DNA of 64,000 nt, from contig FSRD01000001.1 of NCBI GenBank assembly GCA_900129675.1, positions 7,491,501-7,555,500 of the forward strand. The letters are read 5' to 3'. Both the position numbers and the translations under genes were made by a program. Below are positions 1 to 25,782 of the stretch, piece by piece. The notes below the pieces were generated by a model. That model was not told the DNA's origin. It did not search any database and worked only from the letters and a program-made list of their open reading frames with translations. This DNA is from Bradyrhizobium erythrophlei. Lineage in GTDB: Bacteria > Pseudomonadota > Alphaproteobacteria > Rhizobiales > Xanthobacteraceae. How positions within the stretch are numbered: position 1 is the stretch's first letter; each line of letters opens with the position of its first letter.

Positions 1-34
1 CAATCAGCGCGGCGGTTCTCGTCAGCCATTTCAT
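1..34 (-). CDS. Start of an exported or membrane protein, cut by the window edge
   Basis: Only the first eleven codons are in the window, reading MKWLTRTAALI from an ATG whose first base is position 34. A purine-rich AGAGAG sits just upstream as a possible ribosome binding site. A short basic start followed by small hydrophobic residues is what a signal peptide or first membrane helix looks like. It follows the binding-protein gene of the ABC operon on the same strand, after an apparent terminator, so it may be separately transcribed. Function cannot be told. Confidence 0.5.
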   Translation of the reverse strand, partial: MKWLTRTAALI

Positions 35-90
35 GTTCACGATCTCTCTAAACAAAACAGGTGAACAGCCAGGCGCCGGTCGGCGCTTTG

Positions 91-136: not shown

Positions 137-1126
137 TCACTTCTTCATCGCGTCATAGACCGCGAAGGAATAAGCGCCTTCCGGCTTCCTGGTGATCACG
201 GGATCGGAGCCGCCAGCCATCAGGGTCGCGACCGTGCGCTCGTAGTCCTTGACGTCGAGCTTGCCGTCGCCGTCGCCGAGCAGCTTGGCGATTTCGCCCA
301 TCATCCGCTTCTGATCCTTCTCGGTCTTGGCGCCGGTGGAATCGCCGGCGAGGATGATCTTCACGGCTTCGTCGGGATGGGTCTTGGCGTACTCCCAGCC
401 CTTCATCGACGCCTTGACGAACTTTGCCATCTTGGCGACGAAGACCGGATCCTTCAGGTTCTTCTCCAGTACCCAGAGGCCGTCTTCCAGCGTGGCGACG
501 CCTTCGTCCTCATATTTGAAGACCACGAGTTGGCTCGGCTTGTAGCCGCCATCGATCACCTGCCAGTACTCGTTATAGGTCATGGTGGAGACGCAATCCG
601 CCTGCTTCTGCAGGATCGGATCGACGTTAAAACCCTGCTTGATCACCTTGACGCCGCCCTTGGAGCCGTCGGGCTTGTAGCCGAGCTTCGACATCCAGGA
701 CAGAAACGGATACTCGTTGCCGCCGTACCAGATGCCGACGGTCTTGTCCTTGAGGTCGACCGGCTTCTTGATGCCGGTGTCGGCGCGGCAGGTCAGTTCG
801 AGTCCGGATTTCTTGAAGGTCTGGGAGATGTTGACCAGCGGCACGCCCTTTTCGCGCGACGCCAGCGCCGACGGCATCCAGTCGACGACGACATCGGCGC
901 CGCCGCCGGCGATCACCTGCGGCGGGGCGACATCCGGGCCGCCCGGCTTGATCGTGACGTCCAGTCCGGCTTCCTTGTAGAATCCCTTGTCCTTGGCGAC
1001 GAGGTAGCCGGCGAACTGAGCTTGGGAAACCCATTTCAGCTGGATGGTGACGGGATCGGCGGCCTGTGCGCTCGAAAGCGCCAGACCAAACGTGAGGCCT
1101 GTGGCCAATGCCAAACTGTGCTTCAT
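137..1126 (-). CDS. ABC transporter periplasmic substrate-binding protein, NMT1/THI5-like
   Basis: A 329-residue periplasmic solute-binding protein that should capture the substrate and deliver it to the two permeases encoded upstream. The start is the ATG at 1126, preceded at good spacing by GGAG; a TTG four codons earlier would lie inside that ribosome binding site. Residues 1-22 are a signal peptide ending in AQA. The mature start, with PVTIQLKWVSQAQFAGYLVA and then GFYKEAGLDV, is the hallmark of the NMT1/THI5-like family, whose known members bind pyrimidine-type compounds (thiamine precursors, riboflavin) and other small heterocycles. Last gene of a four-gene minus-strand operon. The ligand is not shown by sequence; the neighbouring catabolic operon suggests an N-heterocycle. 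Confidence 0.88.
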   Translation of the reverse strand: MKHSLALATGLTFGLALSSAQAADPVTIQLKWVSQAQFAGYLVAKDKGFYKEAGLDVTIKPGGPDVAPPQVIAGGGADVVVDWMPSALASREKGVPLVNISQTFKKSGLELTCRADTGIKKPVDLKDKTVGIWYGGNEYPFLSWMSKLGYKPDGSKGGVKVIKQGFNVDPILQKQADCVSTMTYNEYWQVIDGGYKPSQLVVFKYEDEGVATLEDGLWVLEKNLKDPVFVAKMAKFVKASMKGWEYAKTHPDEAVKIILAGDSTGAKTEKDQKRMMGEIAKLLGDGDGKLDVKDYERTVATLMAGGSDPVITRKPEGAYSFAVYDAMKK

Positions 1127-1157
1127 AAAAAACTCCAAATCCTAAGACCTTGCCGAC

Positions 1158-2276
1158 CTAGGTCCGATACGACGGGTGCCAAAACGTTGTCGCGCGTTCG
1201 GCCAGCGTGACAAGTCCGTAGAAAGCCATTCCGGCGAGGGCAGCGAGGGCGATTTCCGCCCAGACCATGTCGATGGCCATGCGTCCCGCCTCGGTGGAGA
1301 TGCGAAACCCGATGCCCTGCGTCGGTGTCCCGAAGAACTCTGCAACGATCGCGCCAATCAGGGCCAGGGTGGCGTTGATCTTCAGCGCGTTGAAAATGAA
1401 TGGCAGCGCCGCCGGGAGATACAGTCTGGTCAGGCTCTGCGGGTAGGTCGCCGCATAGGAGCGCATCAGGTCGCGCTCGATATGTCCGGACGCCGACAGG
1501 CCCGCCAGCGCGTTCACCAGCATCGGGAAGAAGGTCACCAGCGCCACCACGGCGGCCTTGGACGGCCAGTCGAAGCCGAACCACATCACCATGATCGGGG
1601 CGATTCCGACCAGCGGCAGCGCCGAGAAGAAATTGCCAAGCGGCAATAGCCCGCGGCCGAGAAACGCGAACCGGTGCGCCAGGATGGCGACCAACAGCCC
1701 GGCGCCGCAGCCGATCGCGTAACCAACGAGAACGCCGCGAATGAAGGTCTGGACGAAATCCTCCCTCAGCGTCGGCAGCGATGCCGCAAATCTGACCGCT
1801 GCTGCACTCGGCGACGGCAACAGCACCGGTGGCACGCCAAAGCCGCGCACGCCGACTTCCCAGAGATAGAAAACCGTTGCCCCGAACAGCAACGGCACCA
1901 GGAGATCAAGCAGTTTCCGCCGCTCGGTCCGGATCGGACGCTGGGCGGCGAGGTTGATTACGCACGTGGCGGCCGCGAGCCAGGCCGCAATCACGATCAG
2001 CCAGAAGCCGATTCGCGCCGAGCCCGCGATCTCAAGATCGTGCAGCAAGACCAGCGACGTCGTGCCGGCCAGAACCACCCCGCCGATGCCGACCGCCGCG
2101 GCGCGGTCATCGGCCATCCAGGCCGCCAGCACGAACAGCACCCCCGCGCCGGCGGCGGCCTGCCATATCGGATGTGACAGCAGCGGCTTTGCCAGCGGCG
2201 CCAGCGGAAACAGAAAGGCCGCCAGAATGGCGCCCGCGGACGCGAGAAGGCCGAGCCGGAGCTTGCGCGGGTCCAT
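1158..2276 (-). CDS. ABC transporter permease with extra N-terminal membrane region
   Basis: A 372-residue inner-membrane permease of the nitrate/sulfonate/pyrimidine (NitT/TauT, SsuC-like) type. The start is the ATG at 2274-2276, which shares a base with the stop of the preceding permease (TGATG), implying translational coupling; the reading frame is open further upstream only by overlap with that gene. The canonical BPD_transp_1 region occupies the last ~250 residues, with the cytoplasmic coupling loop near AATYPQSLTRLYLPAALPF. The first ~120 residues add about four hydrophobic segments that ordinary ~260-residue family members lack. Its partners are the adjacent permease, ATPase and binding protein. 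Confidence 0.85.
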   Translation of the reverse strand: MDPRKLRLGLLASAGAILAAFLFPLAPLAKPLLSHPIWQAAAGAGVLFVLAAWMADDRAAAVGIGGVVLAGTTSLVLLHDLEIAGSARIGFWLIVIAAWLAAATCVINLAAQRPIRTERRKLLDLLVPLLFGATVFYLWEVGVRGFGVPPVLLPSPSAAAVRFAASLPTLREDFVQTFIRGVLVGYAIGCGAGLLVAILAHRFAFLGRGLLPLGNFFSALPLVGIAPIMVMWFGFDWPSKAAVVALVTFFPMLVNALAGLSASGHIERDLMRSYAATYPQSLTRLYLPAALPFIFNALKINATLALIGAIVAEFFGTPTQGIGFRISTEAGRMAIDMVWAEIALAALAGMAFYGLVTLAERATTFWHPSYRT

Positions 2277-3199
2277 CAATGCGCTCCCATGCGCCGGGCA
2301 ACGCCGCGCTCGACCAGGCCGACCAGGCCAATCAGACCGGACGAGAGCACCGCGGATGCCACCAGCGCCGCCCAGAGCTGGACGGTCTGCCCGTAATAGG
2401 AGCCGGCCAACAGCCGCGCGCCGATGCCTGCTTCCGCGCCCGTCGGCAACTCGGCGACGATGGCGCCGACAAGCGAAATCGTGATGGCAACCTTGAGGCT
2501 GGTGAAGAGATAGGGGATCGCCGCGGGCCAGCGCAGTTTCCACAGCATCTGGCGCGGCGTCGCCGACCAGGTCCGCATCAGCTCGATCTGCAGCGGGTCG
2601 GGCGAGGTGAAGCCTTTCACCATTCCGATGGCGATCGGAAAAAAGCAGAGATAGGCGGAAATGATCGATTTCGGCAGCAACCCGTGCAGTCCGAGCGCGC
2701 CGAGCACCACGACGAAAATCGGCGCCAGCGCCAGCACCGGCACCATTTGCGAGCAGATGATCCAGGGCAACAGGCTGCGTTCCAGCACCCGGCTGTGCAC
2801 GATCAGCAAAGCGAGCAGGATGCCGAACAGCGCGCCAAGCACAAAACCCAGCAGCGTCGCCGACAGGGTGACCAGCGAATGATAGACCAGGCTGCGCGGC
2901 GCGAGCGGCGGATAACCAAAGACGCCGTCGATGAACGCGGCCACGACCTGGTGCGGTGCCGGCAACAGCGGACGCTCGGCGCTCATCGTGCCGGACAGAA
3001 CGTCCGTGACCGTGTAGGGCGTCTCCTCTCGCTCAAAGCCGTCGCGGACCAGCGTCCAGTTCATGGCCAGCGCCGCGACATACCAGATCGCAATGAGTGC
3101 CAGGATCGTCGTCGCCAGCGGCGCATAGCGCTCGGTCAGCGGATGGCGGGCAAGCGTTGCCGTCGTCCGTACCGGCAATGCGAGCGAACTACTCGTCAT
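2276..3199 (-). CDS. ABC transporter permease, NitT/TauT type
   Basis: A 307-residue permease, the second membrane subunit of the importer. A hydrophobic anchor near residues 28-48 is followed by a periplasmic stretch and then about five further membrane segments. The coupling loop is seen around TWSATPRQMLWKLRWPAAIPY. It overlaps the ATPase gene upstream by 11 bases and the other permease downstream by one, so the three are surely cotranscribed. Two different permeases point to a heterodimeric channel. It probably works with the NMT1-type binding protein; the substrate is inferred only from neighbours. Confidence 0.86.
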   Translation of the reverse strand: MTSSSLALPVRTTATLARHPLTERYAPLATTILALIAIWYVAALAMNWTLVRDGFEREETPYTVTDVLSGTMSAERPLLPAPHQVVAAFIDGVFGYPPLAPRSLVYHSLVTLSATLLGFVLGALFGILLALLIVHSRVLERSLLPWIICSQMVPVLALAPIFVVVLGALGLHGLLPKSIISAYLCFFPIAIGMVKGFTSPDPLQIELMRTWSATPRQMLWKLRWPAAIPYLFTSLKVAITISLVGAIVAELPTGAEAGIGARLLAGSYYGQTVQLWAALVASAVLSSGLIGLVGLVERGVARRMGAH

Positions 3200-4130
3200 A
3201 GGAATGTCCTGCGCGCAGGCCGGAACGAACGCGCTGGGCGATTTTGAGAAACTCCGGCGTCTCGCGGATCTCGAGCGAGCGGTCGGGCGGAAAATCGCAA
3301 TCGATGATATCGATGATGCGGCCGGGACGCGGCGACATCACCACGATCCTGGTCGACAGGAAAACCGCTTCCGGAATCGAATGGGTGACGAACAGCACCG
3401 TCTTTTCGGTCGATTTCCACAATTGCAGCAGCTGCTCGTTGAGATGGTCGCGCACGATCTCGTCGAGCGCGCCGAATGGTTCGTCCATCAGCAACATCGC
3501 CGGATCGAACGACAGCGCACGCGCGATCGAGACCCGCTGCTGCATGCCGCCCGACAGTTGCCAGGGAAATTTGCGCTCGAAACCGGTCAAATTGACCAGC
3601 GCGAGGTAGCGTTCCACCCGCTGCTGCTGGTCGGCCTCCGAAAATCCCATGATTTCCAGCGGCAGCTTCAGGTTCTTTTCGATGGTACGCCACGGGAATA
3701 GCGCCGGCGCCTGGAACACATAGCCGTAACTGCGCGCCAGCCGCGCATTCTCCGCGCTCATGCCGTTGACCAGAAGCGAGCCGGAAGAGGGCTGCTGGAG
3801 ATCGGCGATCACGCGCAACATCGTGGTCTTGCCGCACCCGGACGGGCCGATAAAGGAAACGAACTCGCCCTCGGCGATCTGCAGGCTGACGCCGGAAAGC
3901 GCGTCGACCCGGCCGTCGGCGGTCTCGAATGTCAGCGAGATGTTTTGCGCATCGACGACCAGTCGTCCCGGCGAGGGGGCGGGCGAAGGAGCTGAAGTCA
4001 CAGGAGAAAAGGATGACACGTTCTCGTCCGGGCGATGCCTGATCGTCGGTTCACTGACAATTGACATGCTCGGCTGACGCGATGCCATGTCAGGGATAGT
4101 GGCAAAAGCTGCTAAAAGAGGCGCGCCCAT
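3189..4130 (-). CDS. ABC transporter ATP-binding protein, NitT/TauT (SsuB-like) type
   Basis: The cytoplasmic ATPase that powers the importer. A Walker A motif GPSGCGKTT lies about residue 95, the Q-loop at FQAPALFPW, the ABC signature LSGGMQQRVSIARAL near 192, and Walker B with D-loop LLMDEPFGALD near 212. The C-terminal switch histidine is in VTHSIPEA. The conserved domain begins near LVVDAQNISLTF (~residue 57), so the first ~55 residues are poorly conserved. The true start could be the internal Met at 4088 or 4067; none has a convincing ribosome binding site. It is the first gene of the minus-strand operon, divergent from the hydroxylase operon. Confidence 0.87.
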   Translation of the reverse strand: MGAPLLAAFATIPDMASRQPSMSIVSEPTIRHRPDENVSSFSPVTSAPSPAPSPGRLVVDAQNISLTFETADGRVDALSGVSLQIAEGEFVSFIGPSGCGKTTMLRVIADLQQPSSGSLLVNGMSAENARLARSYGYVFQAPALFPWRTIEKNLKLPLEIMGFSEADQQQRVERYLALVNLTGFERKFPWQLSGGMQQRVSIARALSFDPAMLLMDEPFGALDEIVRDHLNEQLLQLWKSTEKTVLFVTHSIPEAVFLSTRIVVMSPRPGRIIDIIDCDFPPDRSLEIRETPEFLKIAQRVRSGLRAGHSYDE

Positions 4131-4212
4131 TGTTTATGCACGCGGACAGAATAATAAGCAGGAATTCGCTGCATTTCCATGCAGTTCTTGTGGAGTTTTG
4201 GCTTGGCGGCTT

Positions 4213-4241
4213 TTGACAGGCAACGTCGGTCGGCAGATACT
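4213..4241 (+). promoter_or_regulatory. Sigma70-type promoter for the catabolic operon
   Basis: The 161-base gap between divergent operons contains TTGACA at 4213-4218, exactly 17 bases, then GATACT at 4236-4241, a perfect -35 and a four-of-six -10. It points at the plus-strand hydroxylase gene starting at 4292. No equally good promoter was seen for the importer operon on the other strand, nor any clear operator. Confidence 0.6.
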
Positions 4242-4291
4242 TTTATGGTGTCTTTTCAAGCCAAAGCGGATGCCGTCTCCGAGCGAGCGTT

Positions 4292-5170
4292 ATGAAGCCT
4301 GCTCCATTTAAATACATTGCGGCTTCTTCGCTGGATCACGCGCTGTCGCTCAAGGCCGAATATGGTGACGAAGCCCGGTTTCTCGCCGGCGGCCAAAGCC
4401 TGATTCCGGCCATGAACTTCCGCCTGGCGCGGCCTTCCGTGCTGATCGACATCAACGGCCTGAAGGACGTAGCCGGCGTCGATCAGACCAGTGGCGAGGG
4501 CGTCCGGGTCGGCGCGCTGACGCGCTACCGCGACCTCGAACGGGATAGCCGCTTTCTGGCATCCTGTCCGCTATTTGCCGACGCGCTTCCGCACATTGCC
4601 CATCCGCAAATCCGAAACCGGGGGACCATCGGCGGGAACCTGTCGCATGCGGACCCAGCTTCCGAACTTCCGGCGCTCGCGATCGCAATGGAGGGGCGAA
4701 TGCGACTCAAATCTTCCGCCGGTGAGCGGGAGGTTGCGGCATCGGAGTTTTTCCAGGGATTGCTCACCACCGATCTCGGGGTCGATGAGATGCTGGTGGA
4801 GATCGCTTTTCCCGAGCCGGCGCCCCGCACCGGCACATGCTTCATGGAAGTGGCCCGCCGGCGCGGCGATTTCGCCCTCGCCGGCGTCGCGGCCATCCTG
4901 ACCCTCGACGCAGAAGGGCGATGCGCAAGAGCGCGGCTGGCGCTTTGCGGCGTCGGCGAAACCCCGGTGGATGCCAGCGAAGCCTTGTCGTCGTTTGTCG
5001 GGCAGCGCTGCACGGACGGCGCCATCGAAACCGCTGCTGCGGAGGTCCAGAAGATGATCGCGCCCTCCGGCAATGTCCACGGCACCGCCGACTACCAACG
5101 GCACATCGCTGGAGTCTTGACGCAGCGCGCCCTCACCATCGCGCATCAGCGGGCCAGTCATGGCGCCTGA
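4292..5170 (+). CDS. Molybdenum hydroxylase, FAD-binding medium subunit (CoxM/CutM-like)
   Basis: A 292-residue flavoprotein subunit of the xanthine oxidase family. It passes electrons from the iron-sulfur subunit through FAD. The N-terminal FAD_binding_5 domain shows the two family signatures: AGGQSLIPAMNFRLARP near residue 32 and NRGTIGGNLSHADPASELP near 108. A CO_deh_flav_C domain follows to the end. Family length is 280-300, so it is intact. Start ATG at 4292 encodes MKPAPFKYIAASS, a typical N-terminus. It is the first gene behind the promoter at 4213 and overlaps the small subunit by 11 bases, giving an M-S-L order. Substrate class cannot be read from this subunit. Confidence 0.88.
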   Translation: MKPAPFKYIAASSLDHALSLKAEYGDEARFLAGGQSLIPAMNFRLARPSVLIDINGLKDVAGVDQTSGEGVRVGALTRYRDLERDSRFLASCPLFADALPHIAHPQIRNRGTIGGNLSHADPASELPALAIAMEGRMRLKSSAGEREVAASEFFQGLLTTDLGVDEMLVEIAFPEPAPRTGTCFMEVARRRGDFALAGVAAILTLDAEGRCARARLALCGVGETPVDASEALSSFVGQRCTDGAIETAAAEVQKMIAPSGNVHGTADYQRHIAGVLTQRALTIAHQRASHGA

Positions 5171-5651
5171 CCGGCACGATATCGAACTTTCGGTCAACGG
5201 GGTATCGTACCGGCGCGGCGTCGAGTCGCGTACGCTGCTGAGCGATTTCCTCCGCCATGACTTGCTGCTCGCCGGCACCCATGTCGGCTGCGAACACGGG
5301 GTGTGCGGCGCGTGCACGGTCCTGCTCGATGGCGCGCCGGTCCGCTCCTGCCTGATGTTTGCGGTGCAGGCCAATGGGCATGAACTCTCGACCGTCGAAG
5401 GTCTTGCGACACCTGCGGGCGAATTGCATCCCGTGCAACAGGCGATGCACGATCATCACGGCCTGCAATGCGGCTACTGCACGCCGGGCATTTTGATGAC
5501 GATGACGGCGTTCCTGAAGGAAAATACACAGCCGTCGGAAGATGAGGTGCGCGAAGCGCTGTCCGGCAATCTGTGCCGCTGCACGGGTTACCAGAATATC
5601 GTCGACGCGATGCTGGCGGCCGCGCAGGCGATGCGGGCGGCCCGGCCATGA
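5160..5651 (+). CDS. Molybdenum hydroxylase, 2x[2Fe-2S] small subunit (CoxS-like)
   Basis: A 163-residue iron-sulfur subunit linking the molybdenum site to FAD. The plant-type ferredoxin half shows CEHGVCGACTVLLDG and a fourth Cys in VRSC (residues ~43-63). The second, helical half has CGYCTPG and CRCTG, ligands of the second cluster. Length matches the family. The gene starts inside the medium-subunit gene and ends in an ATGA overlap with the large subunit, so stoichiometric coupled translation is expected. Confidence 0.92.
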   Translation: MAPDRHDIELSVNGVSYRRGVESRTLLSDFLRHDLLLAGTHVGCEHGVCGACTVLLDGAPVRSCLMFAVQANGHELSTVEGLATPAGELHPVQQAMHDHHGLQCGYCTPGILMTMTAFLKENTQPSEDEVREALSGNLCRCTGYQNIVDAMLAAAQAMRAARP

Positions 5652-7996
5652 CAACCCGCTTTTTCGGCGCACCGGTCAAACGCAACGAAGACCGCAAGCT
5701 TTTGACTGGACAGGGGCTGTTCATCGACGACGTCGAACTGCCGGGCATGTTGCACGCGGCCTTCCTGCGCAGCCAGGTGGCGCATGCTCGAATCAAAAAG
5801 ATCGATGTATCCCGGGCGCTGAAACGTCCCGGCGTGGTGGCGGTCTATACCGCCGATGATCTCGGCGCCTACTGGCAGCCCGGACCGTTGCTGGTCCCGC
5901 CACCGCCGATCGCGGGAATTGTCTTCAACGCGCGAACCCAGGTGCCGCTGGCCAAAGAAAAGGTTCGCCACGTCGGTGAGCCTTTGGCCGTCATCGTTGC
6001 CGAAAGCCGTTACATCGCCGAAGATGCGCTCGACGATATCGACGTCGATCTCGAAATCCTGCCGGCGGTCGTCGATATCGAAAAGGGGCTCGATGCCGCA
6101 GCACCCCGTGTTCACGACGATCTCGAGTCCAACGTCGCAGCGCATGTCCGGCAGACCAAGGGCGATTACCGCAACGCGGCCGCCAAAGCCGATCTGATCC
6201 TCAAACGCCGGTTTCGCTATGAGCACGGCATTTCCTCGCCGATCGAAACGCGCGGCGTGGTGGCGCAATGGAACGCCCGCAGCAGCCAGATGACGATCTG
6301 GGACACCACCCAGGCGCCGGTTTTCGTTCGTAACGGTCTCGCTGCGATGCTCGGTCTCGGCGAACAGCAGGTGCGCGTCATCGCGCCCTTTGTCGGCGGC
6401 GGCTTTGGCCCGAAGATCATGATGTTCTACCCGGAAGAGGTCGTGCTGCCGTGGATCTCGATGCGGCTCAACCGACCGGTGAAATGGATCGAGGACCGGC
6501 TGGAGCATTTTTTTGCGACCACGCACGAGCGGGGCCAGATTCATGATGCGGAGATCGCGGTCGCGCGTGACGGCCGCATCCTCGGCATCAAGGACGTCTT
6601 CCTGCATGACACCGGTGCGTATGATCCCTATGGGCTGACCGTGCCGATCAACAGCCAGTGCACGCTGCTCGGTCCCTATGTGGTGCCGGCCTATGACAGC
6701 ACATTCACGGCGGTGTTCACCAATCTGCCGATCGTGACGCCGTATCGCGGCGCCGGGCGTCAGCACGGCGTGTTCGTGATGGAGCGGCTGCTTGATCTGG
6801 CTGCGCACGAGCTCAAGATCGATCCGGCAGAAATCAGGCGCCGCAATCTCATTCCGTCGGACGCGTTTCCGTACAAGAACGAGATCATCTTCCAGGATTT
6901 TCAGCCGCTGGAATATGACAGCGGCAATTACGAGCCGGTGCTCGACAAGGCGCTCGAAGCGATCGGATATGCCGACTTCCTGAAGCACGAACAGCCAAAG
7001 CTACGCGCGCAAGGTCGTCATGTCGGCATCGGCGTCGCCTGTTACGTCGAGGGCACCGGCATCGGTCCCTACGAAGGCGCAAAAGTCCAGGTGCAGGCCA
7101 ACGGCAAGGTCAATGTCGCGACCGGAATCGGCACCCAGGGGCAGGGGCACTTTACCAGCTTTGCGCAAATCGTCGCCGACCAACTCGGCGTCGATGTCAC
7201 CGAAGTCGATATCGTCACCGGCGACACCGACCGGTTCTATTGGGGAGCGGGGACATTCGCCAGCCGCGGCGCGGTCGTCGCCGGCAACGCGGTCAACGAA
7301 GCCTCGCGCGTGGTGCGGCAGAAGGCCCTGAAGCTCGCCGGCGACCTGTTCGAATGCTCGGAGGATGATCTCGTTCTCGAAGGCGGCAAGGTTTCGATCG
7401 TCGGTATCCCCGAAAAATTCATCAGGCTTGGCGAACTGGCCCAGCGCGCCAATCCGATGCGCGGCGCGGTCAAGCCCGGCACCGAGCCGGGCCTGGAGTC
7501 GACTCAGTATTTCGGGCCGCCCAGCGGCGCGACCGCCAACGGCGTCCACGCGATGATCGTCGAGCTGGACCCGCAGACGTTCGACCTGAAAATTCTGAAA
7601 TACGTCGTGGTCCACGATTGCGGGACCGTGATCAATCCAATGATCCTGACCGGCCAGATCCATGGCGGCGTGGCCCAGGGCATTGGCAACGCGTTCTACG
7701 AAAAGCTGTCGTTCGACGACCAGGGCCAGCTCCTCAACGCGTCGCTGGCGGACTATTTGCTGCCGACCGCGCTGGAGGTTCCGCGCATGGAGCTTGACCA
7801 TACGACGACGCCGTCCCCGCTCAACCCGCTGGGAATCAAAGGGGCCGGAGAGGCCGGTGCGATCCCGGTCGGTCCTTTGTTCGCGCAAGCGATCGAGGAT
7901 GCGCTGCATCTCAGGCGCCAGAAGGTCGAACTGCTGGAGATCCCGCTGAGCCCGAGCCGGTTGTTCGAATTGACGCAAAGCGCGAGGCTCCCGTGA
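5648..7996 (+). CDS. Molybdenum hydroxylase, large molybdopterin-binding subunit
   Basis: The catalytic subunit (782 residues) of a xanthine-oxidase-family dehydrogenase. The start is the ATG in the ATGA overlap with the small subunit (MTTRFFGAPVKRNEDRK). Family landmarks are the FVGGGFGPK cofactor motif, GTQGQGHFTSFAQIVADQLG, and the C-terminal GIKGAGEAGAIPVGP carrying the catalytic glutamate. The active-site loop reads PYRGAGRQ, not the AYxCSFR loop of true form-I CO dehydrogenase, so this is not a CO oxidiser. Known relatives hydroxylate N-heterocycles (uracil, nicotinate, quinoline, purines). Its location beside a ring-opening amidohydrolase suggests a pyrimidine-like ring, by inference. 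Confidence 0.9.
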   Translation: MTTRFFGAPVKRNEDRKLLTGQGLFIDDVELPGMLHAAFLRSQVAHARIKKIDVSRALKRPGVVAVYTADDLGAYWQPGPLLVPPPPIAGIVFNARTQVPLAKEKVRHVGEPLAVIVAESRYIAEDALDDIDVDLEILPAVVDIEKGLDAAAPRVHDDLESNVAAHVRQTKGDYRNAAAKADLILKRRFRYEHGISSPIETRGVVAQWNARSSQMTIWDTTQAPVFVRNGLAAMLGLGEQQVRVIAPFVGGGFGPKIMMFYPEEVVLPWISMRLNRPVKWIEDRLEHFFATTHERGQIHDAEIAVARDGRILGIKDVFLHDTGAYDPYGLTVPINSQCTLLGPYVVPAYDSTFTAVFTNLPIVTPYRGAGRQHGVFVMERLLDLAAHELKIDPAEIRRRNLIPSDAFPYKNEIIFQDFQPLEYDSGNYEPVLDKALEAIGYADFLKHEQPKLRAQGRHVGIGVACYVEGTGIGPYEGAKVQVQANGKVNVATGIGTQGQGHFTSFAQIVADQLGVDVTEVDIVTGDTDRFYWGAGTFASRGAVVAGNAVNEASRVVRQKALKLAGDLFECSEDDLVLEGGKVSIVGIPEKFIRLGELAQRANPMRGAVKPGTEPGLESTQYFGPPSGATANGVHAMIVELDPQTFDLKILKYVVVHDCGTVINPMILTGQIHGGVAQGIGNAFYEKLSFDDQGQLLNASLADYLLPTALEVPRMELDHTTTPSPLNPLGIKGAGEAGAIPVGPLFAQAIEDALHLRRQKVELLEIPLSPSRLFELTQSARLP

Positions 7997-9111
7997 GGTC
8001 GGCGCAGGTTTTCAGACTGTCGATGGCGCATCCCGGAGATCTCTCCGAACTGGATCGGTTGATCACCGGCGGAACGGTCCGTGCGGCCGAAGTAGCAGCC
8101 ATTATCGGCAAGACCGAGGGCAATGGTGGCGTCAACGATTTCACCCGCGGCTACTTCACACAGACCCTGATGGCGCTGCTGTCAAAGCATCTGAAAAAGC
8201 CCGCGGAGCAATTGATCCACGAAATTCCCTGCGCGCTGTCCGGCGGCACGGAAGGCGTCATGAGCCCGCATTACAGCGTGTTTTGTGCCGGCGAAGCCGA
8301 TGCGGCGCCGGGCGCAGGATCGTCGCTCGCGATCGGCACCGCACTCAGCGAACCGGTTCCGGCCGAAAATGTCGGCCGGCGCGCCCATGTCGACAGCGTC
8401 GCCAATGCGGTTCGTGCGGCGATCGCCAATGCCGGGATTGAGCGGCTCGACGACGTGCATTTCGTGCAGGTCAAATGCCCCTGCGTCACGGTCGCCCGTG
8501 CAGCGGCGGCGATTGCCGCGGGCAAGACGCTGCTCACCAATGATCCCAACAAATCGATGGCCTATGCGCGCGCGGCCGGCGCCTTCGGGGTTGCCGTCGC
8601 GCTCGACGAGCTAAAGCTTTCCGGCTTTGAGGATGCGTCGCTGCTCAGCGATTTTTCGATCCAGTCGCCGCGCGCCAGCATTTCGTCGGGCGTCGAAGTC
8701 GAGAGCAACGAGGTCATCGTGCTCGGCAACAGCCCGCACTGGTCAGGCCCGCTGCGCATCGCGCACCGGCCGATGGCCGACGCGCTCGACATCGGCGCGA
8801 TCGTCGATGTGCTGGCCGACCTCCGCATAGCAGCGAACCCACAGGTTTCTGCCGACGATGCCGCGCGGATCGCGACCGTGCTGGTCAAATGCGAGCCGGA
8901 CCGGCGCGGCCGGATCCGCGGCAACCGCCACACCATGCTCGATGACACCGACATCAACGCGCAGCGCCATATCCGCGGCGCGGTCGCAGGCCTGGTTGCC
9001 GGCGTGATCGGCGACGGACGGATTTTCGTGTCCGGCGGCGCCGAACATCAGGGACCCGACGGCGGCGGCCTGATTGCCGTCATCGCCCACCAGAAAAACG
9101 GCGGAGCCTGA
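7993..9111 (+). CDS. Ring-opening amidohydrolase, cyanuric acid hydrolase/barbiturase family
   Basis: A 372-residue member of the small AtzD/TrzD/barbiturase family, which hydrolyses an amide bond in cyclic imides such as cyanuric acid or barbiturate. The protein is three pseudo-repeats, each contributing lysine and serine: IGKTEGNGG with ALSGGTEGVMSPH, then VQVKCPC with SISSGVE, then VLVKCEPDRRGRIRGNRHT with FVSGGAEHQGPDGGG. All appear present, so activity is plausible. It starts at a GTG that overlaps the large-subunit stop (GTGA), and its own stop overlaps the next ATG. In oxidative pyrimidine degradation the hydroxylase product barbiturate is the substrate of this family, so the pairing is suggestive. 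Cyanuric acid or a novel imide are alternatives. Confidence 0.85.
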   Translation: MRSAQVFRLSMAHPGDLSELDRLITGGTVRAAEVAAIIGKTEGNGGVNDFTRGYFTQTLMALLSKHLKKPAEQLIHEIPCALSGGTEGVMSPHYSVFCAGEADAAPGAGSSLAIGTALSEPVPAENVGRRAHVDSVANAVRAAIANAGIERLDDVHFVQVKCPCVTVARAAAAIAAGKTLLTNDPNKSMAYARAAGAFGVAVALDELKLSGFEDASLLSDFSIQSPRASISSGVEVESNEVIVLGNSPHWSGPLRIAHRPMADALDIGAIVDVLADLRIAANPQVSADDAARIATVLVKCEPDRRGRIRGNRHTMLDDTDINAQRHIRGAVAGLVAGVIGDGRIFVSGGAEHQGPDGGGLIAVIAHQKNGGA

Positions 9112-10337
9112 TGCGGATCGTCATCGTGGGGGCAGGCGTGGCGGGATGCGTGATGGCGCGCAGGCTCTCGCTGCTCGGGGATGTCGAAGTGGTCTGCCTC
9201 GAGCGGGTTTCGCGCGACGACCATTCCGAAGCCGGCACCGGGCTCAATGTCGGTCCGAACGCCGTCAAGGCGCTTGATGCGATCGATCCGGAATTGGCCG
9301 CGCGCATTACCGAGGCCAGCTATATCTGGCGCAACTGGCGGATATCGCTGACCGACGGCACCGTGCTGTTCGATCTTCCGCTGGCCAACGTGGCGGACGG
9401 ACCGGGCTGGCGGATCCGCTGGTCGGAGCTTTATCGGGTGCTGCGTGAGGCCGCCGGCGACTGCGTGTCGTATGGCTGCGAGATCACCGAGATCAGCCGC
9501 GATGCGGGCGACCCCGCCAAGACCTCGATTTCGTGGAGCCGGGATGGCAAGGCGCATCGGCTGGACGGGATCGATCTGCTGATCGCGGCCGATGGACGAT
9601 ACTCGCGGATACGGCGTGCGATATCGGGCGAACCGGCGGTGCGGCAGACCGGCGTTGCGATCTTTCGCCTGCTGGTGCCGGATACGTCGAACGGCCTGAT
9701 CGACGATTACGAGCAATGGTTCAACGGACCCAACCGGCTGCTGTCGTTCCGGGTGCCACCGGGGCACATTTATATCGCCGGCACGTTTCCGATTCTGCCG
9801 GATGAGCAGATCGCCGAGCGTTCGAAAACACCTGATGCGTTGCGCGCGGTCTATACGCCGCGCAGCGCGCCACCGAGTGCCCAGGCACGCTGGCTGATTG
9901 ACACGATCAGCGCGAACGCGGCCGAGACGCATTGGGCGCGGATGCAGGAACACGAACTGCTCTACCGCGCCGCCGGCTGCAACGTGCTCTATCTCGGCGA
10001 TGCCGCGCACGGCATGGTGCCGACGCTGGGGCAGGGCGCAACCCAGGCGCTCGAAGATGCCGCGAATGCGGCAATGCTGATCATGCAGCGCTACAATGAC
10101 GGAAGCCGTGACGTCGAAAGCTGGCTCGCCGATGTCGAAGCGCTCCGGAAGGACCGCATGCGTTTCGTCATGGAGTTTTCGCTCGATGCCACCGATACGA
10201 TGCTGCAAGGCGCCGATCCCGTGAAGGGAACCGCGCACAAGAATGAAGCATCGTTCCAGAACCGGTTGAAGGCGCTATATCGGGACGTCGGACTGCCCCT
10301 GGATGGAAGCGTCGAATTGAGGAGACACGCGCAATGA
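9111..10337 (+). CDS. FAD-dependent aromatic-ring monooxygenase
   Basis: A 408-residue single-component flavin hydroxylase of the FAD_binding_3 (salicylate/p-hydroxybenzoate hydroxylase) class. It shows the Rossmann GxGxxG in IVIVGAGVAGC at the N-terminus, the second conserved stretch LLIAADGRYSRIR near residue 160, and the FAD-ribityl motif GDAAHGMVPTLGQGATQAL near 300. Such enzymes use NAD(P)H and O2 to hydroxylate electron-rich aromatic or heteroaromatic acids. It starts in a TGATG overlap with the amidohydrolase gene and ends in an ATGA overlap with the VOC gene. The family alone does not give the substrate; 6-hydroxynicotinate-type monooxygenases would fit a heterocycle pathway. Confidence 0.85.
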   Translation: MRIVIVGAGVAGCVMARRLSLLGDVEVVCLERVSRDDHSEAGTGLNVGPNAVKALDAIDPELAARITEASYIWRNWRISLTDGTVLFDLPLANVADGPGWRIRWSELYRVLREAAGDCVSYGCEITEISRDAGDPAKTSISWSRDGKAHRLDGIDLLIAADGRYSRIRRAISGEPAVRQTGVAIFRLLVPDTSNGLIDDYEQWFNGPNRLLSFRVPPGHIYIAGTFPILPDEQIAERSKTPDALRAVYTPRSAPPSAQARWLIDTISANAAETHWARMQEHELLYRAAGCNVLYLGDAAHGMVPTLGQGATQALEDAANAAMLIMQRYNDGSRDVESWLADVEALRKDRMRFVMEFSLDATDTMLQGADPVKGTAHKNEASFQNRLKALYRDVGLPLDGSVELRRHAQ

Positions 10338-10849
10338 CCGCAGCCACCGAACTGCCGCTCGCAACGGTCCATGGGCTTTATCACATCGCGATCAAGACCG
10401 AGGATCTGGCGGCGACACGGAAATTCTATACCGACATCATCGGATTGCGCGACTTCCAGCGGCCGGATTTCGGATATCCGGGGGCCTGGCTGGGCTGCAC
10501 GCAACCGGGCGGGCTTGCAATCCTCCACGTCTATGCCGGCGGACCGGCGCTTGGACCGGAAGGCAAGGCGCCCGCAGGCACCGCGGCCATCGATCACGTC
10601 TCGCTGTCGTGCTCGGGCTATCGCTCCTACGTTGCGCGGTTCAAGGCGGCCGGGCTGGACTGGCGTGAGTTCATCGTGCCCGGCACGTCGCTCTGGCAAC
10701 TGTTCGTCTATGATCCGAGCGGCGTTCAGCTGGAACTGACGTTTGAATGCGGCGGCGAGGGCGACCAGAAGCCGGATATGTCGGCGGGACGAAAGTACGT
10801 CGCCGGCTCGAACTTCTTCGACAAGGCGACCTATCCCAAACTGGCCTGA
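10334..10849 (+). CDS. VOC-fold (glyoxalase/dioxygenase superfamily) protein
   Basis: A 171-residue protein of the vicinal-oxygen-chelate superfamily. It has two beta-alpha-beta-beta-beta modules: LYHIAIKTEDLAATRKFY near residue 16 and AIDHVSLSCSGYRSYVARF near 86, ending VQLELTFE. The histidines opening each module and the late glutamate are where VOC enzymes bind a divalent metal. Members are glyoxalases, extradiol dioxygenases, isomerases or bleomycin-type binders. It is the last gene of the plus-strand operon, overlapping the monooxygenase by four bases, so a step in the same pathway (dioxygenase or isomerase) is likely but unproven. Confidence 0.78.
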   Translation: MTAATELPLATVHGLYHIAIKTEDLAATRKFYTDIIGLRDFQRPDFGYPGAWLGCTQPGGLAILHVYAGGPALGPEGKAPAGTAAIDHVSLSCSGYRSYVARFKAAGLDWREFIVPGTSLWQLFVYDPSGVQLELTFECGGEGDQKPDMSAGRKYVAGSNFFDKATYPKLA

Positions 10850-10984
10850 CGCCTGGCCGACGATCGCCGAGTATATCAATCGTTGTAATCCTTAGTTGCC
10901 ACTTTTCCTCCGAGTTCCAGTGAACTGGATCACAACCGCCGGCCGCGGTCGGTCCGAGAGTGGGGATTGTGGAGGGATTCAGCC

Positions 10985-11077
10985 ATGACCCAACCATCCG
11001 CGAAGCAGCGCATAGCGACCGACCTGATCATCCTGATGCTCGGAGCAGTCATCATGGGCGCATTTTGGGCGCTGTAG
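10985..11077 (+). CDS. 30-residue single-helix membrane peptide
   Basis: A short ORF with a good ribosome binding site (GGAGGG about eight bases upstream of the ATG). It encodes a polar N-terminus (MTQPSAKQRIATD) followed by one hydrophobic stretch, LIILMLGAVIMGAFWAL. The layout of a charged leader plus one helix to the end suggests a small inner-membrane protein. No function is known to me. It stands alone downstream of the catabolic operon. Confidence 0.5.
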   Translation: MTQPSAKQRIATDLIILMLGAVIMGAFWAL

Positions 11078-11560
11078 CGAGCACGGGCGCGTCAGCCGCC
11101 AAACCTATTGATCGCGCTCCAGCTTACGCCGGCCCCAGTGCGGATCCTTCGCGCGCTCCGAATCTATCGTTGAAATTGAAGCGGCCAACGCGCGTACGTC
11201 GTGGCGCCGACTTGGGGCAGCCACGCGGTCTCCGAGACATTCCCCGCCTGTGTACAAAGCGTGCGCAGGCGGGTTTTTGCCACGAATCGCCCCCACGTTC
11301 GATTTTGGCCATGCCTAGCGGGCCAAGGGGATGGTCAGGGCCCGACGCGTGTCTTCGAGAACTCACACCGCGCGCCGGGCCGCTTCTTAGCCGCGCTGAA
11401 ATCCGGCCGGACATCGGCACCTCGATGTCCGCAAGCCTTGCAGTCGAACTGCGCGACCGCTGCCGGCACCAACGGGCCACCGGAAAAGCTCAGGAAGTTC
11501 GTCGCCTGCTTTCGCTTGCCGTCCCGAGGGGCCAGCAGGCGGCTGGGATGTTTGTCTCTG
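11078..11560. other. Stretch with no secure gene
   Basis: Between two tiny membrane-protein genes. The only coding-like trace is on the minus strand (about 11335-11500), reading CKACGHRGADVRPDF, which resembles the end of small zinc-ribbon-like hypotheticals common in this group. Only one CxxC pair is left and no plausible start precedes it, so it may be a remnant. Confidence 0.35.
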
Positions 11561-11719
11561 TCATCTTGACGCTCGCGATCCGAGCCACAGCCCCACGAAG
11601 GCGCCGACCCCACTGAGCAGCACTCCCGAATAGGAGATCATGTCGCCACCCCAGAGTTCGGGAATAAGCCCGCCGATCGTAGAGCCAATAAAAATCCCTA
11701 TCCAGATGGATGCTTGCAT
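11561..11719 (-). CDS. 52-residue small membrane protein
   Basis: A complete short frame from ATG at 11719 encoding two hydrophobic, glycine-rich helices: SIWIGIFIGSTIGGLIP and VLLSGVGAFVGLWLG. They are separated by a short polar turn (ELWGGD), and the protein ends in a basic tail (SRASR). The GxxxG-rich helices resemble the small transglycosylase-associated/YeaQ-like membrane proteins, though the match is loose. It sits just outside the left end of the integrated element, so it belongs to the host chromosome. Confidence 0.55.
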   Translation of the reverse strand: MQASIWIGIFIGSTIGGLIPELWGGDMISYSGVLLSGVGAFVGLWLGSRASR

Positions 11720-12173
11720 GGGTCAGCGTAACCAAGCGCGGCCGCGCGCGAAAGCTTTTCCCAACGGGTAATCGGCAAATGAGGTCTTGGATTTCGTTTT
11801 CAGCCCAAGCTCGACCAGCCGGCGGATTTTCTCGATACGGGTCGCAACGTCGTGCCTTACACCGCAAGTTTGGCGGAAGGGGTGTCACCCGTGTGACATT
11901 GATATAGTTATGATATTTTCTATTTTTCGGAGTTAACCCACGAGCTATTCCACGTTCATGCGCCGCACGGCTGGCGCCGCGCTTCGGCGTCCGACGAAGG
12001 CCATAAACGAATCTTTTACGGGCACTCGTATATACCTGTGTACGTCAGCTTGTTGCGGCTCAAACCCGCCGACTATGAACGCTCAGACCGTCATTGTCCC
12101 TGACCTCCCCTAATCGGCCAATTCAATTCGCGAGTGCGTGCCTTTGCGCGGCTCGCCCATGATAGAGGTCACC
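11720..12173. other. Left end of the integrated element, non-coding
   Basis: Contains the left attachment repeat (11870-11884). Inside the element the first ~290 bases hold an AT-rich patch near 11900-11940 that may include promoters for the rightward genes. No gene was seen. Confidence 0.5.
11870..11884. repeat. Left attachment-site repeat (attL)
   Basis: TTGGCGGAAGGGGTG, identical to the terminal 14 bases plus one flanking base of tRNA-Ser at 25768-25782. The flanking bases diverge on both sides, so the repeat is exactly 15 bp. Confidence 0.75.
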
Positions 12174-12356
12174 ATGATCGACGAGTCATTCACTATCGAC
12201 GAATTTTGCGCCAACGAGAAAATCTCGCGCAGTTTTTTCTACAAGCTTGAAGCGCAGGGCGACGCGCCAAAAACTTACCCTGTCGGTCGTACGCGGCGCA
12301 TCGGCCCCGCCGCATACCTAGCATGGCGTGCCGCACGCGAAGCGCTTGCCGCCTAA
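12174..12356 (+). CDS. Small helix-turn-helix protein, AlpA/excisionase-like
   Basis: A 60-residue DNA-binding protein. The start at 12174 is chosen for AGAGGT four bases upstream; an ATG at 12159 in frame has no such site. The core FTIDEFCANEKISRSFFYKLEAQ, then a basic VGRTRRIG wing, matches the winged-helix MerR/AlpA-type layout of phage excisionases and prophage activators. It precedes the helicase gene, separated by a gap with a GC hairpin. Likely role: control of excision or of the replication gene. Confidence 0.65.
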   Translation: MIDESFTIDEFCANEKISRSFFYKLEAQGDAPKTYPVGRTRRIGPAAYLAWRAAREALAA

Positions 12357-12501
12357 GCCCAAAAGAAAAAAGCCCCCGAGAGTTGGCGCTCCCGAGGGCG
12401 GATAGGTATCTGAATATATTGCAAGCATCTAGATACTCTAATCCGCCTTAATTATTTGTAAGCGCTTTCGCTCGGGCTCCCCCATAACCGGAGTCTGAAC
12501 C

Positions 12502-14226
12502 ATGCAACTTGCCACCATAAACAGCCCCAAATTCCTCGGCTGGTCAAAGTACATTGCCGACGCAGCGAGAGACGAGCCGCCGATTGAATACCGCCTCGCG
12601 GTGGCGCCATCGGAGGAGGCTGCTTACTCGTTTGTAGATTTTCAGGAAGAGCATTTTTACTGCGATCCCGAGCACATAGGCTGGGACTTCCACCGCTTGT
12701 ACGGCGGCCCAGACGGTGCGGGGCGCGACATGTTCGATACGGCGATGGCGGCAGGCGGCAGGCGCTGTAGCGACGAGATATGGGCCTCGTTCAATCGGCC
12801 CCGCGCTCCTTCTGATTGCCTCCTGGTCGACGGTATGGACGAGGCTGTTCATTACGGCTGGGAAGCACCGCCCGAGATAGCCGCGGCAATCGAAACGCTG
12901 CGCGACATGCGGGCGGCGCGAACGGCGCAGCGCAAAGCCGTCGACAAAGCGCGCGATGCTACTGTGTTCGCTCGTTCCGACCGCTTCCTTGCTCTGGACG
13001 AGGCCGCATACGGCGATTGGCTCGATGACGGCAAACCCGACGGGCGCGCGCTCAAGTTCTCCCGCTGGAAAGCGAGGGACGCGACCGAGGAAGCACAGCT
13101 CGCCCGATATGAAGCACACCGCATGCAACAAATGCCAGGAACGCCAATGCCCGCCGCGCCGCTGCCGGATATGCTCACGTCGTCCGCCGAATTCATCGGA
13201 GCGTTCGTGCCGGCCGAATTCCTTATCGATGGGATTGTGCAGCGGCGGTATTTCTACTCAATGACCGCTCAGACGGGTGTCGGTAAGACGGCGATTGCCA
13301 TGCGGTGGATGGCTCACGTTGTCAGCGGGAAGCCGATCGGTGACAGGGAAGTGCAGCAAGGATCCGCGCTTTATTTCGCGGGTGAAAACCCCGACGACGT
13401 TCGCGCGCGGTGGCTAGTGCTCTCGCGGGAAATGGGGATCGACCCGAACACCGACAAGATAACCTGGATCGTCGGCGCCAAGGATTTGAATGCTACGGCG
13501 ACACAGATCAGCGGCGAGGTCGCGCGAAAGGGATTGAATCTTGCCTATGTCGTGATCGATACCGCCGCCGCTTACAATGTCGGCGATGATGAAAACAGCA
13601 ATACCCAAGCCGGCAACTATGCGCGCCAGCTTCGCAGCCTGACCAACCTTCCCGGCGGACCGTGCGTCGTCGCGCTATGCCATCCGACTAAGCGCGCGGG
13701 CAACGATGATCTAATGCCCCGCGGCGGCGGCGCCTTCCTTGCTGAAGTTGATGGTAACATGGCTGTCGTGTTGGACGACTCGTTGCTCAAAGTGGCGCCC
13801 TTCGGCAAGTACCGCGGCGATATGTCATGGCAGCAGCGCTTTGAAATCGACGTGGTTAAGGATCACCCGAAACTCAAAGACGCGCGCGGCCGTCAGATGA
13901 ATTCCGTTGTTGCCCGTCCGGTTGGCGACGGCGTTGCCGCCATCATGGAGAAGCGCACCGATGCCGACATGCAATTGGTGCTCAGTGCCGTGGATCGCAC
14001 CCCCAGCGCCACGCCGTCCGACCTGGCGCGCATGCTCGGGTGGACATACGGCGCGAAGTCGGAGCCCCACGTGAATCGGGTAAGGCGCAATCTGGATCGG
14101 CTTGCGAAAGACAAGCTGGTTCGGGAGGTGATGGGCAAATGGCGCGCGACAGAGGCCGGGCAGCGCGAACTCAATGCGATCGATGCGGCAAAGGCCACAA
14201 TACCGAAACCGTTGCCGCCGCGCTAA
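12502..14226 (+). CDS. RepA/DnaB-like AAA helicase of the integrated element
   Basis: A 574-residue replication-type ATPase. Walker A TAQTGVGKTAIAMRW lies near residue 258 and a Walker B-like LAYVVIDTAAAYNVGDD near 350, followed by the sensor-like VVALCHPTK. The central ~250 residues are thus a RecA-fold hexameric helicase domain (RepA/AAA_25 type). The N-terminal ~230 residues have no recognised motif, and the C-terminus (SATPSDLARMLGWTYG onward) looks like a winged-helix DNA-binding domain. CGGAG stands before the start. The repeat-rich region right after the gene would be a natural origin for it. Confidence 0.75.
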   Translation: MQLATINSPKFLGWSKYIADAARDEPPIEYRLAVAPSEEAAYSFVDFQEEHFYCDPEHIGWDFHRLYGGPDGAGRDMFDTAMAAGGRRCSDEIWASFNRPRAPSDCLLVDGMDEAVHYGWEAPPEIAAAIETLRDMRAARTAQRKAVDKARDATVFARSDRFLALDEAAYGDWLDDGKPDGRALKFSRWKARDATEEAQLARYEAHRMQQMPGTPMPAAPLPDMLTSSAEFIGAFVPAEFLIDGIVQRRYFYSMTAQTGVGKTAIAMRWMAHVVSGKPIGDREVQQGSALYFAGENPDDVRARWLVLSREMGIDPNTDKITWIVGAKDLNATATQISGEVARKGLNLAYVVIDTAAAYNVGDDENSNTQAGNYARQLRSLTNLPGGPCVVALCHPTKRAGNDDLMPRGGGAFLAEVDGNMAVVLDDSLLKVAPFGKYRGDMSWQQRFEIDVVKDHPKLKDARGRQMNSVVARPVGDGVAAIMEKRTDADMQLVLSAVDRTPSATPSDLARMLGWTYGAKSEPHVNRVRRNLDRLAKDKLVREVMGKWRATEAGQRELNAIDAAKATIPKPLPPR

Positions 14227-14276
14227 GTAGTGCGATTTTGTGTGCTCTCCGCCAACTTATATGTTGAATCTGGCGA

Positions 14277-14522
14277 CTTACAGGGTCGAAAACGGCCTGT
14301 AAGTCCGAAGCGCGATTTCTGGTTCAAACTTACAAAAAACTTACGTGTAAGAAACAGCCTGTAAGTCTGTAAGAAAATCGCCAAAAGCAATGTCGGTTCA
14401 ATCACATGACATTTTCCAAGGTTGTAAGTGAAACCATAGTCGGAGAGGGGGGACTTTTAGTCCCCTCCGATGGTCCGTACTTACAGCCCTATCCCTATAG
14501 GCGTAAGGCGTAAGTCTGTAAG
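14277..14522. repeat. Iteron-like cluster of GTAAG/CTTAC, candidate replication origin
   Basis: Twelve copies of GTAAG or its complement CTTAC occur in 246 bases. CTTAC starts at 14277, 14329, 14340 and 14480. GTAAG starts at 14299, 14347, 14361, 14369, 14424, 14503, 14510 and 14518. Several extend to CTGTAAGT. Roughly half a copy is expected by chance on both strands. Two pairs are spaced eight bases (14361/14369, 14510/14518). The region follows the helicase gene and has no gene of its own. Confidence 0.6.
14441..14469. other. Strong hairpin inside the iteron-like region
   Basis: GGGGACT and AGTCCCC face each other across a TTT loop, with further GGAG/CTCC pairing outside. There is no T-run after it, so it is not an ordinary terminator. 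It could be a single-strand origin or primase signal. Confidence 0.45.
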
Positions 14523-14686
14523 CGGTGGTCAATGAGCGGCGCATACAGGGAATGAGTAGAGTTTCGGGACCAATACGCGCGTGCGCGCGAGGCCGCACCC
14601 CTTCCTTGCTTCCTTGTTTTCTTGCTTCCTGGAAAATGCCCCATGGCGCAGCATACTCAAGCGGGCTCAGATCAAGGGGAGGGATG

Positions 14687-25767: not shown

Positions 25768-25782
25768 TTGGCGGAAGGGGTG
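25768..25782. repeat. Right attachment-site repeat (attR) in tRNA-Ser
   Basis: TTGGCGGAAGGGGTG covers the tRNA 3' acceptor arm (on the complementary strand) plus one base. It is identical to 11870-11884. Confidence 0.75.

Follow-up and report, generated by a model that had tools for sequence, protein, structure and literature searches.

The window analysed here, a stretch of 64,000 nucleotides of the Bradyrhizobium erythrophlei genome (assembly GCA_900129675.1, contig FSRD01000001.1, positions 7,491,501–7,555,500), carries near its left edge a tight six-gene operon on the plus strand (4292–10849) which faces a divergent NMT1-type ATP-binding cassette (ABC) importer (137–4130). Two genes of the operon, coding for an AtzD-family ring-opening amidohydrolase (AH) and an FAD-dependent group A monooxygenase (FMO), are the conserved core of the locus and are usually accompanied by a VOC protein, an amidase and a second importer. 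By its residues the AH–FMO pair appears to form a specificity subfamily of its own, and we consider it likely that the locus imports and degrades a small nucleobase-type N-heterocycle, an oxopyrimidine or a close relative, with FMO hydroxylating a ring carbon and AH opening the imide ring. Open reading frames, Pfam domains and coordinates agree with the first-pass annotation, which had described the divergent importer and the six genes with overlaps of 1–11 bases. The operon consists of the following genes, which overlap in this order by 11, 4, 4, 1 and 4 bases:

4292–5170, plus strand, medium (FAD) subunit M of a molybdenum (Mo) hydroxylase (PF00941, PF03450)
5160–5651, plus strand, small (2Fe-2S) subunit S of the Mo hydroxylase (PF01799, PF00111)
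5648–7996, plus strand, large (molybdopterin) subunit L of the Mo hydroxylase, gene moL (PF20256, PF02738, PF01315)
7993–9111, plus strand, AtzD-family ring-opening amidohydrolase AH of the Gln321-type subfamily (PF09663, 438.9 bits; signature, tree)
9111–10337, plus strand, FAD-dependent group A monooxygenase FMO with HpxO-like fold (PF01494; alignment, model, fold comparison)
10334–10849, plus strand, single-domain VOC protein (PF00903; invariant His and Glu positions; fold)

Conservation of the amidohydrolase–monooxygenase pair

A species collection was scanned with an FMO alignment, by means of two short peptide patterns of FMO. Of 139 relatives the best 80 were kept, and these gave 80 loci, which are not independent of each other. 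To be counted as present in a locus a gene had to reach 40% identity along 60% of the query length, and 60 regions of 19.9 kb, all from Hyphomicrobiales and many from the genus of the window, served as controls. Of 1,483 genes called in the surroundings of the loci, 44 neighbour proteins were covered by profile scans.

A full-length Gln-type AH lies near FMO in 71 of the 80 loci, and among 397 genomes of the order an AtzD-family gene directly adjoins FMO in all eight that carry FMO, the window's own genome counted. VOC is present in 55 of the 80 loci, the binding protein of the second importer in 50, the cluster amidase in 45, an AtzH/HpxZ-like gene in 23 and a close Mo large subunit in 20, and each of these five genes is present in 0 of the 60 control regions. 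Of all partners FMO, which the first-pass annotation had described as added, accompanies AH most constantly, and in the relatives the amidase and the AtzH/HpxZ-like gene belong to the set as well.

Within the Bradyrhizobium group the run moL–AH–FMO is kept in all 16 loci with FMO 74–83% identical, VOC follows next after FMO in 15 of them (in the short contig L055 a different gene takes that place), and genome G616 keeps the whole layout including the binding protein of the second importer, with an FMO 95% identical. This arrangement is thus not due to chance, and we rejected a chance juxtaposition also because the linkage is conserved in many genera. FMO is found in 20 of 265 genomes of the genus, so that the cluster is accessory. 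The genome of the window (11.7 Mb, four contigs) has a single PF09663 match, the one described here. Five loci (L077, L086, L087, L092 and L093) show a different assembly of the pair in which AH, an MmgE/PrpD-family gene (as verified for L087) and a Mo hydroxylase of lower similarity (38%) come after FMO. Among the matches listed in the open literature (titles and abstract starts) we found no description of a cluster of an AtzD-family enzyme with an FAD monooxygenase.

Specificity residues of the amidohydrolase

AH belongs to the AtzD/TrzD/barbiturase (Toblerone) family, with 438.9 bits for PF09663 against a cutoff of 25. It keeps the three Ser–Lys dyads (K40/S83, K161/S231 and K299/S347), three Arg including R52 at the Arg54 position, and at 347–359 the metal loop SGGAEHQGPDGGG; the metal loop of the family is given in the part of PMC6557486 available to us. 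These features are shared with the cyanuric acid hydrolases AtzD, TrzD and Moorella CAH (4bvq, 5t13, 6bum), whereas the barbiturase Bar of Rhodococcus (5hwe), of the same fold family (242.3 bits) and from a pathway type that likewise includes a Mo enzyme, differs at the positions which determine the substrate. According to the accessible text of Peat et al. (PMC3758960) cyanuric acid hydrolases have R195, T321, R325, G345 and G346, and barbiturase has N, H, K, V and S. At these positions the AH of the window has R, Gln, R, G and G, with Gln324 standing at position 321. It thus matches four of the five cyanuric acid positions (R195, R325, G345 and G346), lacking the Thr321, and none of the five barbiturase positions (N195, H321, K325, V345, S/A346), and the reading of AH as a barbiturase finds no support in these residues.

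The Gln is a property of the whole FMO-linked group. In the MAFFT alignments on which the typing of position 321 rests, it is found in 79 of 79 FMO-linked rows (76 distinct, as three loci were fetched twice), whereas the other 42 rows have Thr in 28 cases, Glu in 13 (one a second copy) and, in one fragment, no letter at this position. A further 39 family members from the same 397 genomes, a set that leaves out one short fragment (G211:C173), have no Gln321 either: 26 read RTRGG, six RERGG, two NHKVD and five otherwise (one without a letter). As Gln321 is found in all FMO-linked rows and in 0 of 79 other typed rows, Gln321 and FMO are coupled in both directions in this sample. In a tree of 120 rows a branch with an SH-aLRT support of 99 sets off the Gln rows and another with 100 sets off the Glu rows, and the Thr rows need two changes. 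The clade is thereby separate from the cyanuric acid hydrolases, from which AH differs also in having an FMO partner. No group with Gln at position 321 is listed in the part of PMC3758960 available to us. The NCBIfam model NF052395 (cyanuric acid amidohydrolase) scores AH at 485.1 bits against a cutoff of 360, which is an annotation only, and we hold this automatic name to be doubtful.

Two further groups were seen among the typed AtzD-family members. The proteins of L217 (genome G032) and L226 (G207) come from the Hyphomicrobiales, in which most typed members are of the cyanuric acid type; they read N-H-K-V-D, agree with four of the five barbiturase positions and are candidate barbiturases by this pattern. 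A third subgroup has Glu321 (L040:16196–17290, L065:13936, L116:16034 and others; 13 rows and six more); an amidase or a BMP importer adjoins it in some loci, and sometimes it lies inside AH/FMO clusters.

The monooxygenase

FMO is a group A FAD monooxygenase (PF01494, 46.2 bits against a cutoff of 22). Its nearest solved sequences by profile are tropone 2-monooxygenase, 6-hydroxynicotinate 3-monooxygenase (NicC), a salicylate hydroxylase and HpxO. The predicted model (pLDDT 93.9) gives VIA Z scores of 34–40 for the best 50 matches listed, all of which are flavin monooxygenases by title, and the best match, tied with others, is the Klebsiella HpxO (3rp6, 3rp7) with uric acid (Z 39.8, 366 aligned residues, 2.9 Å, 23% identity). 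HpxO Arg204 and Tyr216 correspond to R209 and Y221 of FMO, which are invariant in 46 FMOs, and NicC has a His at the place of Arg204. These two residues and Asp293 presumably act at the urate site of HpxO; R204Q is named in the title of structure 3rp8. Two of these three residues are kept. The third, Asp293, is T305 in FMO, so that the site differs from that of the urate enzyme, and the HpxO model NF033623 gives FMO 84 bits, far below its curated cutoff of 500. Substrate recognition by FMO may thus resemble that of a urate-like ring in changed catalytic surroundings.

The molybdenum hydroxylase as an optional module

The domains of its three subunits make the Mo enzyme a xanthine-oxidase-type M-S-L hydroxylase, and subunits and domains are those of the CO dehydrogenase and quinoline oxidoreductase types. 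The best solved relatives of the large subunit are a CoxL-type protein (8uem) and quinoline 2-oxidoreductase (1t3q), and 6-hydroxypseudooxynicotine dehydrogenase is also among its solved relatives. The large subunit passes the NCBIfam model CODH_aero_grp5 by only 0.6 bit (950.6 against a cutoff of 950), and it reads PYRGAGR where we take aerobic CO dehydrogenases to have the cysteine motif AYxCSFR. The name CO dehydrogenase is thus doubtful on this sequence, even if databases may still assign it.

The Mo hydroxylase as the defining step of the pathway is not supported, and we reject this enzyme as a part of the core. A close homologue is missing near 60 of the 80 FMO loci, and the 20 loci that have one all come from the Bradyrhizobium group (16) and from Roseomonas and Falsiroseomonas (4). 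In none of 13 tested genomes without a linked close Mo gene was a large subunit above 42% identity detected: ten have distant homologues only (at most 42%) and three have none at the cutoff, and the same search returned 89% and 71% identity in two control genomes. One reservation has to be made, as a less similar Mo enzyme lies in nine of these 60 loci (see below). The divergent importer of the window follows the same distribution, being present in 11 of the 20 loci with a close Mo enzyme and absent from the remaining 60. Read most simply, the Mo hydroxylase and this importer would be an optional feed-in module, which supplies a precursor to a core that is fed elsewhere by the second importer.

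Nucleobase genes in related loci

Genes of nucleobase metabolism are neighbours of the pair in some relatives. Locus L081, which has FMO and no recognised AH, carries upp, DUF1688 and GTP_CH_N genes beside FMO at 11693–14862, and in L055 a GTP_CH_N gene comes after FMO. We take DUF1688 to be URC4 and the GTP_CH_N genes to be URC1-like; the set in L081 is a uracil catabolism set. In L051 the amidase is followed by upp, a PuuE-like gene (by homology), an OHCU decarboxylase fused to hydroxyisourate hydrolase and a uricase, and L057 has by homology the same set without upp. The cytosine deaminases of L103 and L116 score above the curated cutoff. PuuE-like allantoinase genes occur in 10 of the 80 loci and in one of the 60 controls, and BMP (PnrA-like) binding proteins in eight of the 80 loci.

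A second set of loci (L041–L046, L106, L108, L110–L112, L114, L118, L120) joins the AH–FMO pair, in combinations that differ between loci, with an ECF-type (PF09819, CbiQ) or BMP (PF02608) importer, an amidase and SDR, epimerase, SIS and PfkB genes. A BhcA-like aminotransferase is also found there, a PuuE-like gene in some of these loci and a BtpA-family gene in L120. This second set resembles a pathway for a related ring in glycosylated form.

Proposed route and alternative explanations

We suggest the following route. Gene content, linkage, residue signatures and the patchy occurrence of this Mo enzyme are observed, whereas substrate, order of the steps and chemistry are inferred. The divergent importer would bring in a precursor which in Bradyrhizobium and Roseomonas would be oxidised by the Mo hydroxylase from a ring C–H to C=O, and the product is probably the compound that organisms without the Mo module take up directly by the second importer. 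FMO would then hydroxylate a carbon of the intact ring, as HpxO does with urate, AH would open the ring by serine attack on a ring carbonyl, and the amidase and the AtzH/HpxZ-like protein present in relatives would free the nitrogen, being unlinked or replaced in the genome of the window. For AH, the three Ser–Lys dyads and three Arg suit a ring with three carbonyls, and its polar pocket, in which Gly345 stands where barbiturase has Val, would accommodate a polar group on ring position 5. The compound 5-hydroxybarbiturate agrees with both features. A specific version of the route in which a uracil-type ring is converted by the Mo enzyme to barbiturate, by FMO to 5-hydroxybarbiturate and by AH to an open ureide is the version we favour, tentatively. 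On a similarly tentative footing we propose that alpha-, beta- and some gammaproteobacteria have an undescribed pyrimidine route that hydroxylates first and opens afterwards, FMO making 5-hydroxybarbiturate or a close trioxopyrimidine and AH hydrolysing it. At the level of the class of reaction the earlier view is supported, both in reading the genes as catabolism of an N-heterocycle through opening of a cyclic imide and in doubting that the textbook route applies. Our explanation as a whole has, in our judgement, about an even chance of being right.

Several observations weigh against it. Nine of the 80 FMO loci are without a full-length Gln-type AH: L121 has AH as a fragment at a contig edge only, L116 and L117 carry an AtzD-type gene of another kind, and no AH was recognised in L081, L103, L104, L109, L115 and L123, although L104 and L121 are contig pieces of about 4 kb (below 4.2 kb) and thus weakly informative. 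The fold rank of FMO names no substrate, since HpxO shares its score with tropone monooxygenase (39.8), and 3-hydroxybenzoate 6-hydroxylase (38.5) and NicC (37.7) come close; moreover, all 46 FMOs have Thr at the place of HpxO Asp293. In nine of the 60 loci that lack a close Mo enzyme a more distant large subunit is nearby (L066, L077, L086, L087, L092 and L093 at 36–38% identity, L095, L103 and L105 at 26–28%), and this distant enzyme might do the same step. A nucleobase marker of any kind is found in 19 of 80 loci and in one of 60 controls (Fisher p 0.00013), which is a description and not an unbiased test, as the markers were picked from these very, non-independent, loci, and each single pyrimidine marker occurs in only one or two of them. 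Barbiturate is to our knowledge not a common natural compound, yet organisms without the Mo step would have to import it. Moreover, the role of the VOC protein is unexplained by the route, and the genome of the window is without a close cluster amidase, none of its 18 amidase matches exceeding 41% identity.

The likeness of FMO to HpxO raises the question of whether the ring is a purine. FMO would then hydroxylate urate or a methylurate, AH would open the six-membered ring instead of hydroxyisourate hydrolase, and the Mo enzyme would make the urate from a xanthine, for which the C-8 oxidation in the caffeine pathway is a parallel. The (tied) closest fold match with uric acid bound, the conservation of Arg204 and Tyr216, the PuuE-like genes and the BMP proteins all speak for this version. 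We nevertheless regard it as unlikely: the loss of Asp293 in 46 of 46 FMOs and the low HpxO score argue against urate as the substrate, and the ordinary urate genes (uricase, hydroxyisourate hydrolase, OHCU decarboxylase) already adjoin the cluster in L051 and, by homology, in L057. For the lost Asp293 and these neighbouring genes, a plain urate pathway was demoted to a rival explanation. A hydroxypyridine, with the Mo enzyme and FMO making 2,3,6-trihydroxypyridine or a citrazinate-type ring and AH opening its imide tautomer, would agree with the resemblance of FMO to 6-hydroxynicotinate 3-monooxygenase and with quinoline 2-oxidoreductase and 6-hydroxypseudooxynicotine dehydrogenase as solved relatives of the Mo subunit. 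It appears improbable to us, since AH keeps with its dyads and Arg residues the equipment for three ring carbonyls and since no pyridine-specific gene was met among the 44 profile-scanned neighbour proteins, a small share of the 1,483 genes.

The two known activities of the AtzD fold have also to be considered. If AH were an ordinary cyanuric acid hydrolase, the oxygenases would prepare an s-triazine ring; the NF052395 score, the four shared specificity positions and the amidase and AtzH-like partners in relatives would be in line with this. The replacement of Thr321 by Gln in every FMO-linked row and the separate branch are not, and chemically neither FMO nor the Mo enzyme would find a carbon to hydroxylate on the cyanuric acid ring, so that we give little credence to this version. 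In the textbook oxidative pyrimidine route the Mo enzyme would be uracil dehydrogenase and AH barbiturase, with FMO and VOC as accessories. The gene types suit these two steps and pyrimidine genes are near in some relatives, but AH has none of the barbiturase residues, whereas two proteins of the same order (L217, L226) match four of five, and FMO is core where this Mo enzyme is optional; we hold the textbook route to be very improbable.

If our reading of 5-hydroxybarbiturate or a close relative as the substrate is true, AH would provide a third physiological substrate for the fold, and the Mo enzyme of Bradyrhizobium and Roseomonas would link uracil-type bases to the AH–FMO route. The literature excerpts available name two substrates, cyanuric acid and barbiturate, and one paper (PMC4051656) calls the fold perhaps a minor family, on the ground that no natural occurrence of cyanuric acid is known. 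A specificity residue of its own together with a constant hydroxylase partner would give the AtzD fold a natural role, and would also caution that the automatic names cyanuric acid amidohydrolase and CO dehydrogenase are probably wrong for these genes.

Amidase, AtzH-like gene and VOC protein

Relatives of the window share with the atzDGEHF operon and the atzG-atzE-atzH clusters an AtzD-like enzyme, an amidase, an AtzH/HpxZ-like protein, an ABC importer and a LysR regulator. They differ in the additional FMO and VOC and in their amidase, which scores below the AtzE cutoffs. The atzG-atzE-atzH clusters are found in several gene settings, and one of these includes a monooxygenase, according to the part of PMC6219798 available to us. 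An amidase and an AtzH-like gene lie beside the AtzD-like gene in some of the relatives and not at the operon of the window; the AtzH-like protein of L107 matches the oxalurate protein HpxZ (200.7 against a cutoff of 135) and is also AtzH-like (PF11533). In the genome of the window an AtzH-like gene with an adjoining amidase lies at C4:970 kb, and as there is no close copy of the cluster amidase the later steps may use unlinked enzymes. We also considered whether an insertion had removed an amidase after VOC, which we rejected as there is no remnant beside the operon. Within the stretch examined, an amidase is likewise absent in six of the 16 Bradyrhizobium-group relatives (L050, L052, L053, L054, L055, L062).

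The VOC residues H17, H65, H88 and E134 are invariant in 37 sequences, and on this pattern the protein is probably a metal enzyme. Its sequence and fold matches are mixed (glyoxalase, FosA, antibiotic-binding proteins and proteins without known function), and the model does not separate a dioxygenase from a glyoxalase or a resistance protein.

Importers, intergenic region and borders of the locus

The features to the left of the operon are the following:

1–55, minus strand, N-terminal end of the binding protein of the second NMT1-type importer; the gene (G000:C4 7490560–7491555) exits the window leftwards
137–1111, minus strand, NMT1/THI5-like substrate-binding protein of the divergent importer (PF09084, 136.6 bits)
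1158–~2280, minus strand, permease B of the divergent importer (PF00528)
2276–3199, minus strand, permease A of the divergent importer (PF00528)
3189–4130, minus strand, ATPase of the divergent importer (PF00005)
4131–4291, divergent intergenic region of 161 bases with one promoter-like match per strand (plus 4213–4241, minus 4179–4151)

The start of permease B is approximate and was taken from the relative L057, as the longest open reading frame, up to 2543, runs into the neighbouring gene. Outside the left edge of the window the ATPase and permease genes of the second importer come after its binding-protein gene, and all three share the strand of the divergent importer (NMT1, ABC_tran and BPD_transp_1 by Pfam; stretch L133 17279–19856). 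The region 4080–4330 contains two promoter-like matches against a mean of 0.3 in shuffled sequences, these being consensus matches only.

On the right, the similarity to 15 of the 16 Bradyrhizobium-group relatives ends at most 20 bases from the VOC stop codon, and in the short contig L055 it does not continue past FMO. In the adjoining window region 10850–12501 the similarity to the Bradyrhizobium relatives stops at the VOC stop codon and the GC content drops rightwards, and a tRNA-Ser gene is found at 25769–25858. The similarity stop, the GC fall and the tRNA-Ser suggest an island or rearrangement boundary to the right of VOC.

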